The notes below the pieces were generated by a model, which saw nothing but the letters and a program-made list of their open reading frames with translations, did not search any database and had not been told where the DNA came from. Of a stretch of 64,000 bases of DNA, positions 5,670 to 28,585 are shown piece by piece. Source of the DNA: Pedosphaera parvula Ellin514 (GTDB lineage Bacteria; Verrucomicrobiota; Verrucomicrobiia; Limisphaerales; Pedosphaeraceae); contig NZ_ABOX02000004.1 in NCBI RefSeq assembly GCF_000172555.1, positions 62,001-126,000 on the forward strand. The letters are read 5' to 3'. Position 1 is the stretch's first letter, and every line of letters begins with the position of its first letter. The position numbers were made by a program, and so were the translations under genes.

Positions 5670-6821
5670 TTAGTACAAAGAGATGGCGATTCTCTTTTTG
5701 AACCCGTCCGCATCCAGTTTTCCCTTGGCAACCGCATCAATGTCGCCTTTCTTCACCTTGATGGTAAGCGTGGACTTGGTCCTGGCTACATCCGTAACAC
5801 CTCTTTCCTCTTTCTGAGAAACCACCTCAGGATTCGCCAAAAGGTCATGCTGTAGCGTTACCATTCTCCGGACAAACGAATCAGATGTCGCGGCTGAAGT
5901 TACAACCACTGTGACTGAATCATCCTCCTTCAGACCTCGAATATTACTCGCATTCTTCAGGGCGTTAACAAGCGACTCTTTCAGTTCATCAACTCGCTTT
6001 GGATTATACTGTTCTTCTGGAGGTTTGCCGGGCACAGCCTGAAATTCGTCCACCGTTACCCCTCTTCGTTGGCCATAGACTTCTCTTTTTGCTTCCTCCC
6101 ATGCCGAATTGGTCTGCTGATTCGGTTTGCTTTCCGCGATGTGTTCCGGGGGACCGGAAAGCGGGAAATTCACTTTAACCAAAAAAATCACACCATAATT
6201 CTCAATTTGCATGTTCTTCAGCTCGTCACCGAAGGTGGATAGCCGGACGCCCATTACGCGGCGCATCTCATCGACTCCCCGCTTTTCAGCTGCCTTTTCG
6301 AGTATGCGGGACATGACATTCATATCCTCTTCAATCGTGGAAATGCTCTTCGGATCCACATCGCCGGATCGAATCACCAGGCTTCCGCCATCCTGCCCTA
6401 GTCTGGTTAAGACCGACTGAAACCGCATATTTCTTCCACCACCCTCGGCTCGGCCAGGCCCGGCTCCGAAAGGGTCCGCAGCTGCAGATCCAGGAGCAAT
6501 TGGAGCTGTGACGGGAAGTCCTGTGGTCGGATCCACCATGCCCGGTTGAACCTGACTTCTACTCTCCTGCCCGGGTCCGGTTACAACAGACTGTAACCGC
6601 ATCTTTGCACCACCCGGCTCGCCTCGGACGCGTCCAGACGCAGAATCAGCAATCGGGGGGGCAGGCGCAAGCTCCGGATCAGGTGGTGGCTCCGCTTGAG
6701 GAGCCTGTGCTAAAAGCAGTATCTGCCGGGCCTCTGCCACCCTGCCTTCTTGAATATTCAGGTCTGCTTTGCTTGAACCTAAGCCGAGCAAGAGCGCCCC
6801 AGCTGCCAGTAATATTTTCAT
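5670..6821 (-). CDS. Exported protein of unknown function with internal MR-QSV repeat
   Basis: 383 residues with a clear signal peptide (MKILLAAGALLLGLGSSKA). The N-terminal third is rich in Pro, Ala and Glu and looks disordered. It contains a repeated motif: GGAKMRLQSVVTGPGQ and, about 60 residues later, GGRNMRFQSVLTRLGQ. The C-terminal half is predicted alpha/beta (TIEEDMNVMSRILEKAAEKR; RVDELKESLVNALKNASNIR; DSVTVVVTSAATSDSF). Last of three genes behind an ECF sigma and a zinc-finger anti-sigma gene, with a 24-bp gap, so it is probably co-transcribed with them. No known family recognised. Confidence 0.75.
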   Translation of the reverse strand: MKILLAAGALLLGLGSSKADLNIQEGRVAEARQILLLAQAPQAEPPPDPELAPAPPIADSASGRVRGEPGGAKMRLQSVVTGPGQESRSQVQPGMVDPTTGLPVTAPIAPGSAAADPFGAGPGRAEGGGRNMRFQSVLTRLGQDGGSLVIRSGDVDPKSISTIEEDMNVMSRILEKAAEKRGVDEMRRVMGVRLSTFGDELKNMQIENYGVIFLVKVNFPLSGPPEHIAESKPNQQTNSAWEEAKREVYGQRRGVTVDEFQAVPGKPPEEQYNPKRVDELKESLVNALKNASNIRGLKEDDSVTVVVTSAATSDSFVRRMVTLQHDLLANPEVVSQKEERGVTDVARTKSTLTIKVKKGDIDAVAKGKLDADGFKKRIAISLY

Positions 6822-23015: not shown

Positions 23016-23345
23016 AGCTTTCAAATTCGACACTCGAAAATCGGCATTCGAAATTTCGAGTCCCATCGGGACGACCGAATTAAAACCCCGGACAAGTCCG
23101 ACATAGCCAAACACATCATACGCCATACAAACTCCCTTTGATCTCTAAACTAAAACATACTGATTACGTATCTATGCATTTCTTGTATAGAATGCGCACC
23201 AAACTTTCAACACATATTTATACTATTATTAACTTTAGCACCTAAACTCACATACTTCGTCCCATCCGTCCATATCAGCCTAGGCGGCCAAAAATCTTTG
23301 ATTTAACCTGTTCGCTTTCCACATTTGCGTCCATCTATTGGTAAA

Positions 23346-24860
23346 ATGATGAGCGATGACATGACGTTGGTTCGGGAATTTGCCCAAAGCAATTCAGAGA
23401 AGGCGTTCACCACTCTGGTATCACGGCACATTAACTTGGTCTATTCGGTCGCCCTGCGCCACGTCCGCGACCCTCATATGGCTGAGGAAATCACCCAGGG
23501 CGTTTTCATCCTCTTCGCACGCAAGGCAAAATCACTCAACCCAAAGACAATCATCTCCGGCTGGCTCGGCCGCACCGCCCGATACGTTTCCGCCGATACA
23601 CTGAAAATTCAACGCCGCCGTCAATTCCGCGAACAGGAGTCGCACATGCAATCTATTTTGAATGAATCGGATTCAGAAGTCTGGACACAAATCGCGCCTT
23701 TGTTGGATGAGGCACTCGATTGTCTGGGGGAAAAAGAACATAATGCCATCGTACTCCGCTTCTTTGAAGGTAAGGATCTAAAACAGGTCGGCGCATCTTT
23801 GGGAATGCGTGAAGATGCCGCGCGAATGCGGGTCAATCGTGCAGTGGAAAAATTGCGGAAGTTTTTTGCCAGGAAGGGTGTGACACTTTCAGCATCGGCA
23901 ATTGCCGGAGCCGTTTCAGCAAATTCCGTTCAAGCTGCGCCGGTTGGGCTCGCCGCCGCCGTTGCCGCCGCCGCATTTTCTGGAACCACCATTGCCACCG
24001 CGACAATCACTGCCGCCACCAAAGCCATGGCCATGACCACACTGCAAAAAATCCTCGTCCCAGCCACCGTCGCCGTGTTGGCCGTGGCAGGAGTCTACGA
24101 AGCCCGCCAGGCCGCGCAAATGCGCGATGCGGTTCGAACACTCCGGCAGCAGCAGGCGCCACTACTCGAGCAAATCCAGCAACTGCAAGGCGAGCGCGAT
24201 GAAAGCGCGCACCAACTTGCCTCTCTGCGCGAGGAAAATGAGAGATTGACCCACGCCACCGGCGAGTTGCTAAGGCTGCGAGGGGAAGTGGGAAGACTCC
24301 GCAGGCAGTCGGACGAACTCAAACTCCTTCGTGATCACAACGCTCAATTGGGAGCGCCTCAGCCAGATGCCTCTGCCAGCAAAGGCTCAGCCCACCCGCC
24401 GGCAGTCGCAAAGATACTCATAACGCACGTAAAGCAGCCACAAGAGGTCGGTGAAGAGCAGATTCGCACGAACATCTCCATTAAGGTGGGAGACATTTTT
24501 GATCAGACGGCAGTGGCTCGTGATGTGCGCACCCTCTATAGCACCGGTTTGTTCCACAATCTTCGCGTGGCGGATAACACCACAGATGAGGGAGTCACAC
24601 TGAACTACCTCGTACAGGAAAATCCAAGGATAAGCCAGATTCGCTTCGCGGGTAACTCCAAGTTCACGGAGGTCGAACTTGCCAAATTACTATCGTCCAG
24701 CGCCGACAAACCATCGGATGAACGGACACTCTCCAACGACGCACAGAAAATCCAGGACCTATACGTTCAATCAGGGTTGTCGGGCGCCAAAGTTAAATAT
24801 GTGTTTAATGTGGATGAAGCCGTCGGGGCAGGTGAGGTAATTTTCGAAATCGCGGAATGA
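23346..24860 (+). CDS. ECF sigma factor fused to a membrane anchor, coiled coil and two POTRA-like domains
   Basis: About 504 residues from the ATG at 23346 (a second ATG follows at once; the frame is open to a TTG at 23325). Order: sigma region 2 (LVREFAQSNSEKAFTTLVSR, HMAEEITQGVFILFARKA) in residues ~10-90; sigma region 4 (LGEKEHNAIVLRFFEGKD, LKQVGASLGMREDAARMRV) ~125-175; an Ala-rich linker; one transmembrane helix (ILVPATVAVLAVAGVYEA) ~237-252; a coiled coil rich in Gln, Glu and Leu (~255-335); then two ~70-residue POTRA-like units (QIRTNISIKVGDIFDQTAV with LYSTGLFHNLRV; ISQIRFAGNSKFTEVELAKL with LYVQSGLSGAKV). POTRA units are periplasmic in BamA. The sigma part should therefore be membrane-held until released, probably by proteolysis. 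Confidence 0.85.
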   Translation: MMSDDMTLVREFAQSNSEKAFTTLVSRHINLVYSVALRHVRDPHMAEEITQGVFILFARKAKSLNPKTIISGWLGRTARYVSADTLKIQRRRQFREQESHMQSILNESDSEVWTQIAPLLDEALDCLGEKEHNAIVLRFFEGKDLKQVGASLGMREDAARMRVNRAVEKLRKFFARKGVTLSASAIAGAVSANSVQAAPVGLAAAVAAAAFSGTTIATATITAATKAMAMTTLQKILVPATVAVLAVAGVYEARQAAQMRDAVRTLRQQQAPLLEQIQQLQGERDESAHQLASLREENERLTHATGELLRLRGEVGRLRRQSDELKLLRDHNAQLGAPQPDASASKGSAHPPAVAKILITHVKQPQEVGEEQIRTNISIKVGDIFDQTAVARDVRTLYSTGLFHNLRVADNTTDEGVTLNYLVQENPRISQIRFAGNSKFTEVELAKLLSSSADKPSDERTLSNDAQKIQDLYVQSGLSGAKVKYVFNVDEAVGAGEVIFEIAE

Positions 24861-25357: not shown

Positions 25358-27589
25358 GTGGCGGCTGTGCGGCGTGGCGATGCCGAGCGTTATCGTGAAC
25401 TCGTCGAGCGTCACGAACGCCGTGTCTACGCCGTCGCCTGGAGCCGTCTCGGCAATGCCGCGTTGGCGGAAGAAGTCACACAGGAGACGTTCATTCGTGC
25501 GTATCGGCGGCTCTGGCTGCTCGGCGATGGCGCAAAATTTTCCGGTTGGATCAATACCATTGCCCGTCGAGTCGCTATCAACTTCGGTCTGCGCCATCGC
25601 CGCGAACTGAATAAGCGCGAACGTTGGGCGTTGGAAAATGCTGACCAGTCCACCAAAGAAAATTCCGCCGTTGAAACCGGCCCACTCCACACACCGGAAA
25701 CCTTGCGGCAGACTTTGGCCGAACTGCCCGCCGCGCACCGTGAATGTCTCGTGTTGTTTTATCTCGAAGGCCAGAGCGGTGCGGAGGCGGCGGCGGCGCT
25801 GGGAATTTCTGAAGCCGTCCTGCGTGTGCGCCTGCATCGTGCCCGCCACGCGATGCGTGAACGGCTCGAGGAAAAACTCGAAGGCTCGCTCGTAAAGTTG
25901 CGACCGGCCAAAACCCTCGTGCCTGCCGTTATGGCTGGTGTGCTGGCCTCCTCTACCACGAAAGCAACGGCTGCGGGCCTCGGTGGAACTGCCCTCGGTG
26001 CACTGGCCAAATTCACACCGTTCAAATTCCTTTTTTCATTTTTTGCCGCCGCCTCGGTTTTAACGGGAATTTTCTTACAATGGCTGTTCATGCGGCTGGA
26101 ATCACGGAATTTCCTTGATCGTGATGGTTTCCGCGCCCGGTTGTTCCGCCGCAGTTCGCGTTGGTGGATTCTGTGGTTTGCTTTGATGATGCTCGTGATT
26201 TGGACGCTGGTCCCCTGGTTCGTTCTGTCATCGCTTCACCGGGGCGAAAGTTTGGCCACATTCTATCTTGTGTTGGCTGGCATCACTTCTGTTATGAGCT
26301 CAATAATGGCGAGGCGGCTGAAGATTATTCGCAACCGATATTTTATCGGAATAGTGGCAACGAATCTATTATTTGCCGTTTTCTGTCTAATGATTGGCCT
26401 GGGATGGATACCAATTCTTTGGACCGCTTACTTTGTGGCTGTGCAGATGATATTGATGTCATTCACTTTTAGCGGAAGGCCGATGCGGGCGGATTACAAT
26501 CTGTTCCTCCGCTCAGTCGAAGGCATGCTAAAAAACGTGGAGCCCGTCATGGCCGAACCTGCGAAACGCCATGTTTTTAACAATTCAGAACTCTTTGATT
26601 TCGCCCGTTTTCTGGGAAACCGGTGGTTGGTAAACGATTTTCGCTTGATGAATAACGGACTTGTTCTGCGAATGTCACCGGTGAATATGTCGCTTTGGCA
26701 TTTTAGTTTGGCCTTTTTTGCCTTCGGATCGCAAGGATCCAAATTAATCCTCCAACGGGACGGAACCGTTTCCGTAACCATGCACAAAAGGGACCGGCGG
26801 GCATTGCGCCAATTGCGCGGTGAAAATCCTTCGCCAAATGGGGAGCTTGAAAACAGGGTTGCCGCCGCTGCTGAATCCGCCTGGCAGAAATTCCGGGTCC
26901 AGGATTTCGCTGCGGCGGAACGCACGCTCGGTCAGGTGCCGGAATCTGAAGTATTTGTCCAACCCCTGGCAAAATCCCTTTCCACGCGATTGCAGCGGGC
27001 GTTCATGATTGGGATCGCCCTATTCACGGTGATTCAAACGTTCGAGATTAACCAACTGCTTCATATCAAGTCCGGTTTCACAATCTCAGATCAAAACTTG
27101 TCCGAGCAGAACTATAAGCTGGCAATGTCTAATTTGAAGACTGCTAAAACGGAAGAGAAACGGTTTTATGCACTCGGCGCTGCCGCCAAGGAAAGTTTTG
27201 TCGCAGGCAAGACTGAGGCCGCGCAAAACTACGCCGGGGAATTGATGACTTTGCTGCCAAAATATAAAGGAAACTGGAACTACGGCAATGCCATCCAGGA
27301 CACCAATTTGGTTTATGGCCGAATTGCCGTGCGTGAAGGAAACATAGAAGCGGCGAAAAAGTATCTGCTCGCCGCCGGCAAAAGCCCCGGTTCCCCACAA
27401 ATGAACAGCTTTGGCCCCAATATGACTTTGGCCGATGATCTTCTGAAAAAAGGCGAGCGCGATACGGTGCTGGAGTATTTCATGCTCTGCCGCAAGTTTT
27501 GGAAAATGGACTTCGGCAAATTGGATAAATGGATGCACGAGGTCATGGATGGAAAGACCCCGGATTTCGGAGCAAACCTATTTTATTAA
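25358..27589 (+). CDS. ECF sigma factor fused to a polytopic membrane domain and TPR-like C-terminus
   Basis: 743 residues from the GTG at 25358. Sigma region 2 is complete (RGDAERYRELVERHERRVYA, AEEVTQETFIRAYRRLWLL); region 4 has LAELPAAHRECLVLFYLEGQ and AEAAAALGISEAVLRVRLHR. Then come at least five membrane helices, e.g. FLFSFFAAASVLTGIFLQWL, RWWILWFALMMLVIWTLVPW and YFIGIVATNLLFAVFCLMIG. After these are a globular segment, another helix (AFMIGIALFTVIQTFEI) and a C-terminal TPR-like region (AAKKYLLAAGKSPGSPQ). Start uncertain: codons from 25316 (PGDPNQNAEQDESA) look native but follow a TGA, and the upstream ATG at 25312 is in another frame. A one-base shift or a non-standard start is possible. 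Confidence 0.82.
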   Translation: MAAVRRGDAERYRELVERHERRVYAVAWSRLGNAALAEEVTQETFIRAYRRLWLLGDGAKFSGWINTIARRVAINFGLRHRRELNKRERWALENADQSTKENSAVETGPLHTPETLRQTLAELPAAHRECLVLFYLEGQSGAEAAAALGISEAVLRVRLHRARHAMRERLEEKLEGSLVKLRPAKTLVPAVMAGVLASSTTKATAAGLGGTALGALAKFTPFKFLFSFFAAASVLTGIFLQWLFMRLESRNFLDRDGFRARLFRRSSRWWILWFALMMLVIWTLVPWFVLSSLHRGESLATFYLVLAGITSVMSSIMARRLKIIRNRYFIGIVATNLLFAVFCLMIGLGWIPILWTAYFVAVQMILMSFTFSGRPMRADYNLFLRSVEGMLKNVEPVMAEPAKRHVFNNSELFDFARFLGNRWLVNDFRLMNNGLVLRMSPVNMSLWHFSLAFFAFGSQGSKLILQRDGTVSVTMHKRDRRALRQLRGENPSPNGELENRVAAAAESAWQKFRVQDFAAAERTLGQVPESEVFVQPLAKSLSTRLQRAFMIGIALFTVIQTFEINQLLHIKSGFTISDQNLSEQNYKLAMSNLKTAKTEEKRFYALGAAAKESFVAGKTEAAQNYAGELMTLLPKYKGNWNYGNAIQDTNLVYGRIAVREGNIEAAKKYLLAAGKSPGSPQMNSFGPNMTLADDLLKKGERDTVLEYFMLCRKFWKMDFGKLDKWMHEVMDGKTPDFGANLFY

Positions 27590-27691: not shown

Positions 27692-28585
27692 ATGAAAAGC
27701 CTTCTCCTTCCACTACTGCTGTTCAGCCTCCTTTCTGCCTCCGCCCACGCTGAATCTCTGCCGGTTAAACTCACAGGCATCATCAACCTGCCCGGCGAGA
27801 AAGAAGTACTTGTGGAAAAGACCGACGCTGTAGACCGCTCCTTCGTTATCAGCAACTCCGAAGGTCAAACCGAGGTATTCGGTAAGGAGATCAAATGCAA
27901 AATTCTTCAAATTGATACAACCAACCGCACGGTAAAAGTTAACCTCACTTTCAACCAATCCAGCACGACCAACACTCTCTCCCTGGAAAACAATACGAAA
28001 AACTCCTCCAACGCTTATGGCATCCATCTTCGCAACGCCAGCCTCCACCGGGTCCAGTGGCTCTACAGCCGATTCACCAATCGCACGATCCTCCAACCTT
28101 CCCTTTCATCTGCCACGATCAGCTGTGATGCTGACGTCACCAACGAAACTGCCGCTGCCCAAGCCCTCTCCCACGCTCTTATTCAAGCCAGCCTTACCAA
28201 CATCCTCGATGGACGCAAGTTCGCCATGATCGTGCCAATCGAACACGCCTCCATGGCCCACCCAGGTTCCTCGAAGATCAAGACCTTTACCCCTCTACCA
28301 CCCACCTCATCGACTCCGCCCGGGCTTACTAGAATGTTCGGGGCCGATTGTACAGATAGCAACCTTCAGGAAACCTTAAAACTTTACTCAATGCTGATTG
28401 GCCGCCAACTCGACCGTTCCGCGCCCCTCCCAGACACCTCTGCTTCTTTTACTTTTGTTACCCAAACTGGGATGTTCAAAGAAGAAGCCCTGTATGCATT
28501 CGACACTCTGTATGCCTGGCAAAACATCAAAATCATCCCCATTGGCAAAGACCTCTTCCAAGCCGTGGAAATTAAAAGCAAGTAA
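27692..28585 (+). CDS. Exported protein with two secretin-N-like domains
   Basis: 297 residues; signal peptide MKSLLLPLLLFSLLSASAHA. Two regions share a pattern typical of secretin N domains (beta-alpha-beta units): LYSRFTNRTILQPSLSSATI with AAAQALSHALIQASLTNILD, and LYSMLIGRQLDRSAPLP with FKEEALYAFDTLYAWQNIKI. In GspD such domains are periplasmic and bind partner proteins. No secretin pore domain follows, so this is an isolated N-domain protein. It lies about 100 bp downstream of the second fused sigma gene. Confidence 0.65.
   Translation: MKSLLLPLLLFSLLSASAHAESLPVKLTGIINLPGEKEVLVEKTDAVDRSFVISNSEGQTEVFGKEIKCKILQIDTTNRTVKVNLTFNQSSTTNTLSLENNTKNSSNAYGIHLRNASLHRVQWLYSRFTNRTILQPSLSSATISCDADVTNETAAAQALSHALIQASLTNILDGRKFAMIVPIEHASMAHPGSSKIKTFTPLPPTSSTPPGLTRMFGADCTDSNLQETLKLYSMLIGRQLDRSAPLPDTSASFTFVTQTGMFKEEALYAFDTLYAWQNIKIIPIGKDLFQAVEIKSK

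Follow-up and report, generated by a model that had tools for sequence, protein, structure and literature searches.

A Pedosphaera parvula ECF sigma factor fused to a membrane helix, a coiled coil and two BamA-like POTRA domains belongs to a family with interchangeable C-terminal modules

The stretch of 64,000 nucleotides from the genome of Pedosphaera parvula Ellin514 that was analyzed here (the window) contains an intact open reading frame for a protein of 504 amino acids that combines an ECF sigma factor, a conserved linker, a membrane helix, a coiled coil and two POTRA domains (Table 1). A fusion of these parts had been proposed in a sequence-only reading of the DNA, and Pfam searches, hydropathy and AlphaFold2 (AF2) modeling recovered every one of them. 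Regions 2 and 4 are the only sigma regions of the protein, as is characteristic of ECF sigma factors; both are intact and score above the curated Pfam cut-offs (Sigma70_r2, residues 24-91, E 6.4e-9; Sigma70_r4, residues 123-172, E 1.1e-9), so that the sigma part does not appear to be defective, and the NCBIfam sigma70-ECF model yields 75.6 bits against a cut-off of 42.9. The structures of SigE, SigW and AlgU top the fold search with the AF2 model. The mean pLDDT per block in the sigma part is mostly 91-98, with values of 67-84 in the linker between sigma2 and sigma4. The model further contains a continuous helix (residues 240-335) with coiled-coil character; the sigma regions, the coiled coil and POTRA2 are confidently predicted, and POTRA1 is modeled poorly, most BamA rows of the underlying MAFFT alignment being misaligned onto the sigma region. 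Just downstream, the window encodes another ECF sigma factor of 743 aa (25358-27589, + strand) that belongs to a different family and contains several hydrophobic segments with a weak MFS-like match.

Table 1. The sigma-POTRA gene, its upstream element and the encoded domains (window coordinates)
Feature	Position	Strand	Description and basis
Promoter-like element TGTTCGCTTT-N8-GCGTCCAT	23309..23334	+	EM motif and own-genome pattern search
Whole gene	23346..24860	+	ECF sigma-linker-TM-coiled coil-POTRA1-POTRA2, 504 aa; ORF check: ATG at 23346, stop ends 24860
ECF sigma regions 2 and 4, residues ~20-177	23403..23876	+	Pfam Sigma70_r2/r4, NCBIfam sigma70-ECF, AF2
Conserved linker motif, residues 178-202	23877..23951	+	conservation over 49 sequences
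Membrane helix, residues ~236-252	24051..24101	+	peak hydropathy, insertion-cost estimate
Coiled coil, residues ~255-335	24108..24350	+	AF2 helix, kept in many family members
POTRA1, residues ~352-426	24399..24623	+	identity to BamA POTRA1-2 up to 51%
POTRA2, residues 427-504	24624..24857	+	PF07244 3.5e-15, alignment with BamA

The assignment of the C-terminal units to the POTRA fold was borne out by structure prediction combined with fold search: the AF2 model matches the tandem POTRA structures of E. coli BamA (2v9h, 2qcz; E 1.7e-4), and a BamA-POTRA profile that includes the fused copy retrieves known structures of BamA/Omp85 (1e-19 to 1e-22). At the sequence level, the POTRA model PF07244 hits two stretches, the better of which coincides with POTRA2 and lies above the curated cut-off, and positions 12-145 of the BamA model TIGR03303 (NCBIfam) match residues 366-503 at 1.8e-21, with a score far under the cut-off for the full-length model. 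Of the 293 genomes of the order, 258 encode proteins that match the last 165 aa, almost always in reading frames of BamA size, and the best BamA match, from the same order, shows 51% identity (E 8e-44). The alignment begins at the start of POTRA1 of mature BamA and the reading frame terminates where POTRA2 ends, so that the C-terminal outer-membrane β-barrel is absent. By these alignments, the pair is a domain-exact copy of BamA POTRA1-2.

The BamA of the same genome (G000:C17) is 47% identical to the fused POTRA part, and in the tree the fused POTRA branch has a length of 1.54 compared with a BamA median of 0.28, that is, it is about five times longer, and has no supported sister. Together, these observations indicate that the graft is old, fast-evolving or both, excluding a misassembly, and on the same grounds we rejected the idea that the POTRAs were copied recently from the host bamA. 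The fused POTRAs retain the core positions of the domain, but some residues that are conserved in BamA, such as the VGP motif, are lost. Given this loss and the long branch, the diverged domains may have stopped binding the partners of BamA.

A search with the 504-aa protein recovered 33 copies of the sigma family in its own genome (E 0 to 2.8e-39); except for the query itself, all of these match only the first 210-395 residues, as do the relatives across the order. The family is defined by the first ~330 residues, and the sigma-linker-helix layout is repeated in the 33 paralogs, so that neither chance nor misassembly explains the fusion. The regions that follow the shared front differ from one member to the next. 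Among 48 sequences, DUF3738 is present in four; one paralog (L051:1213-2646, − strand, G000:C14) contains a SecDF_P1_head module (7.9e-21), others show weak matches to Secretin, GspD N0 and Asp-protease, and the remaining modules include TPR repeats, HEAT repeats, CarboxypepD_reg and many unnamed ones. Even the closest sigma relative, from genome G015, which matches at 71% over residues 1-321, ends in a different C-terminal module. With one front combined with differing C-terminal modules, the front half of the family is a platform for swapped modules; as one of many interchangeable modules, the POTRA pair is better described as a sensor cartridge than as an invention without parallel. One paralog with an in-frame TAA is possibly a broken copy (G000:C5:110507-111202; L047, L093).

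A second sigma-POTRA fusion was detected in a genome from another family of the order (G031), where a family member of ~437 aa carries a single C-terminal POTRA that is nearest to BamA POTRA2. In the sigma tree, this protein belongs to a supported clade of 3 rows (99), separate from the clade of 21 rows (98) that includes the window protein, so that the sigma platform gained POTRA at least twice. Outside the source genome, the fusion was thus found in the single-POTRA form; the two-POTRA form was seen in only one of the 293 genomes. At E<=0.001, a threshold that weaker cases could escape, no further sigma-POTRA fusions were found among the 293 genomes. With the exception of G031, the other genomes with two POTRA matches that had been considered as fusions proved to contain second BamA copies, BamA fragments or the second POTRA of BamA.

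The promoter-like element of the window gene lies between 12 and 37 nt ahead of the start codon, a spacing that leaves little or no 5' leader. An EM search of the 140 bases upstream of the family genes detected one motif, roughly AAAAT.TTTTGTYCGRTTT-N8-GGCG, in all 45 genes that were examined, with its end at a distance of 14-33 nt from the start codon; its log-likelihood is 442, compared with 104-115 in five shuffles. Unlike the EM search, enumeration of exact words yielded little. Judged by eye only, the motif variants seem to track the sigma subclade. In the 7.4-Mb genome, the pattern TGTTCGCTTT-N8-GCGTCCAT with at most one mismatch occurs at four sites, with none for the reversed control, and each of these is directly upstream of a sigma-family gene (the window gene, L030, L031 and L032). 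The pattern was built from members of the subclade of the window gene, so that the recovery of those genes is expected and the absence of other sites is the informative part, with the proviso that a single stringent pattern may miss targets. Outer-membrane assembly genes are not among these confident matches of the window sigma in its own genome, and relaxation to two mismatches gives no excess of further targets (14 genome matches and 20 in the control).

In contig C57, which was left out of motif building, the motif matrix finds three strong sites that precede a family sigma gene and two neighboring genes on the same strand; the neighbors encode apparently secreted proteins, and the sites share GGGTGCTAT in the −10 region. 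These sites support the element as a putative sigma-specific promoter and suggest autoregulation. The C57 locus is likely to be a small regulon with matching TTGTCGGATT...GGGTGCTAT elements (L170:1233-4895, G000:C57), and a fourth site of this type is found on contig C16 (L169:5152-5185, G000:C16). In G031, the fusion gene lies upstream of genes for a lolC/E-like permease and a lolD-like ATPase (L120:4567-8386, G031:C66), and a near-identical promoter-like element at 6219-6252 (− strand) faces the fusion, before an apparent frameshifted gene remnant. We dropped this adjacency to lolC/E-lolD as evidence because the top motif matches do not include a correctly oriented site upstream of lolC.

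The main membrane helix coincides with the hydropathy maximum of the window protein, and has the lowest insertion-cost estimate in 38 of the 48 family members. Sigma factor, transmembrane helix and a predicted outer domain are thus joined in one chain. The helix is preceded by a second, weaker, alanine-rich hydrophobic segment (residues 178-218) that could add another membrane pass and so place the POTRAs in the cytoplasm. The linker motif within this segment, GVxLSAxxLAxxxSANxVQAAPxGLA, is conserved to the same extent as the sigma regions among the 49 sequences, and resembles the core of a signal peptide with a cleavage-like site between VQA and AP. The GspD-N0-like module of the paralog L050 is homologous (37% identity, 1e-30) to a separate protein that is encoded in the window (27692-28585, + strand) and opens with a signal-peptide-like sequence, which argues for periplasmic modules; together with the module types known to be periplasmic, this relationship favors a topology in which the chain would cross the membrane once and expose the module on the outer side. 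The genome also encodes an RseP-like protease, in which HELGH, a DG motif and PDZ-like stretches are recognizable.

We propose that the fusion protein is a one-polypeptide, membrane-anchored ECF switch in which the POTRAs act as a periplasmic sensor and the sigma domain is released by proteolysis and transcribes its own gene, a model to which we give about even chances and for which we infer the topology, the ligand, inhibition by tethering, proteolytic release and autoregulation alike. The sigma domain would reside in the cytoplasm, with one helix spanning the inner membrane and the coiled coil holding a decoy of BamA POTRA1-2 in the periplasm. The POTRA pair would probably bind the ligands of the outermost POTRAs of BamA, which may be chaperones of the periplasm, outer-membrane proteins that are not yet assembled or further partners in assembly; the tethering would change when the ligand binds or is lost, and this state would be relayed via the coiled coil and the helix. 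The most likely route is that periplasmic and RseP-type proteases free the sigma domain, and the freed or activated sigma would then transcribe its own gene from the upstream element, and perhaps further genes as well. It is plausible that outer-membrane assembly is, in this fashion, read directly into transcription by the fusion. At E<=1, Pfam detects no zinc-finger or FecR-like anti-sigma domain in the extension or the linker, and the lack of a recognized anti-sigma domain in the linker counts against the tethered switch, as do the second hydrophobic segment, the failure to find targets other than sigma-family genes, the long POTRA branch with its lost residues and the detection of the two-POTRA form in a single genome. 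A tentative extension of the model, which we hold with considerably more doubt, is that the family consists of modular one-gene transmembrane switches, where a sigma-helix-coiled-coil front with its own matched promoter is joined to decoys copied from the envelope machines of the cell itself (BamA POTRA, SecDF P1, secretin) that report the load of each machine.

Several other readings of the same observations have to be weighed against the tethered switch. The POTRA pair could itself be the effector, with the sigma domain mainly driving its own gene, so that the protein would be a self-amplifying, tethered POTRA chaperone or decoy. The confident sites in the genome, which lie only before the gene itself and the genes of three sigma paralogs, would fit a self-transcribing envelope protein of this kind, as would the interaction domains (POTRA, TPR, HEAT) among the modules; however, at least one paralog has other adjoining promoter targets, and the search with one stringent pattern may have missed some, and we consider this explanation rather unlikely. 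Another possibility is shuffling without a dedicated role, whereby a fast-expanding, autoregulated family captures random 3' domains and the drifted POTRA senses nothing of outer-membrane assembly. The intact reading frame, the retained POTRA core positions, the two gains of POTRA in different sigma subclades and the extracytoplasmic types of several identifiable modules all speak against such undirected capture, which we therefore regard as unlikely even though the 33 copies with many unrelated modules, the long POTRA branch and the presence of the two-POTRA form in a single genome are readily accommodated by it.

The predicted orientation of the protein could also be wrong: if the linker at residues 178-202 inserts along with the main helix, the coiled coil and the POTRAs would be cytoplasmic and might function as a scaffold or in autoinhibition. 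The hydropathy of the first segment is close to that of the second in many members, and its resemblance to a signal-peptide core points the same way, but this segment is rich in Ala, Ser, Thr and Gly, and its insertion-cost estimate exceeds that of the main helix in the 38 members mentioned above; furthermore, SecDF P1-like modules are periplasmic, and the separate homolog of one module apparently has a signal peptide, which makes two passes quite improbable. Finally, an assembly or annotation artefact that joined a sigma gene to bamA might be suspected in a genome that consists of 102 contigs and for a POTRA region that is clearly BamA-derived. Yet the stop codon comes exactly after POTRA2 and the rest of bamA is not found downstream, the identity to the BamA of the genome is as low as indicated above, and the paralogs share the layout with other modules, so that the chance of an artefact is negligible.

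If the sensor reading of the tethered switch is true, the fusion connects outer-membrane assembly to transcription directly through one protein, and the likely signal of each family member can be read from its module. The promoter-like elements allow regulons to be predicted in a phylum for which little genetics is available. ECF sigma factors with C-terminal membrane extensions are already known from a few groups (PMC8999054); what is new here is that the modules are of the POTRA, SecDF and secretin types, that no anti-sigma domain is recognized and that modules are swapped on such a scale. In the open papers that we searched, we found no description of a Verrucomicrobia ECF family or of a sigma-POTRA fusion, nor of a one-genome family with dozens of interchangeable C-terminal modules that include copies of BamA and SecDF.

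The C-terminal 150 residues of the fusion protein are homologous to BamA/Omp85, in a domain-exact manner and with the identity and branch length given above, but the protein is devoid of the β-barrel, POTRA3-5 and a signal peptide of its own. In function, a parallel would be the RpoE-RseA system with DegS and RseP, in which RpoE has a separate anti-sigma factor and DegS senses the C-termini of outer-membrane proteins. The fusion protein would likewise link the assembly of such proteins to an ECF sigma factor, in a genome that encodes an RseP homolog; unlike RpoE-RseA, it unites sensor and sigma in one protein. Among ECF sigma factors with fused extensions, ECF41, ECF42, ECF56 and similar groups also have a regulatory domain fused to the C-terminus and lack an anti-sigma (PMC8999054), but their extensions are soluble, cytoplasmic and without a membrane helix. 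Closer in layout are ECF48, ECF52 (SCO4117) and ECF53 of Actinobacteria, in which one or more C-terminal transmembrane segments and extracytoplasmic domains are attached to the ECF sigma and activation by proteolysis is expected (PMC8999054); in contrast to the window protein, these come from another phylum and contain an anti-sigma-like domain of the zinc-finger type, and their outer domains are different, with no POTRA. A further comparison is with IutY of Pseudomonas putida (ECF243), a sigma/anti-sigma fusion that is freed by Prc and RseP (PMC8999054). As in the window protein, a single chain comprises an N-terminal ECF sigma, a membrane helix and a C-terminal sensor that is periplasmic in IutY and probably so here, without a separate anti-sigma (PMC8999054). 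The extension of IutY is an anti-sigma that partners an outer-membrane siderophore receptor, whereas the window protein has a coiled coil and BamA POTRAs in its place; the release of IutY by Prc and RseP is an experimental precedent for the freeing of a fused sigma factor.
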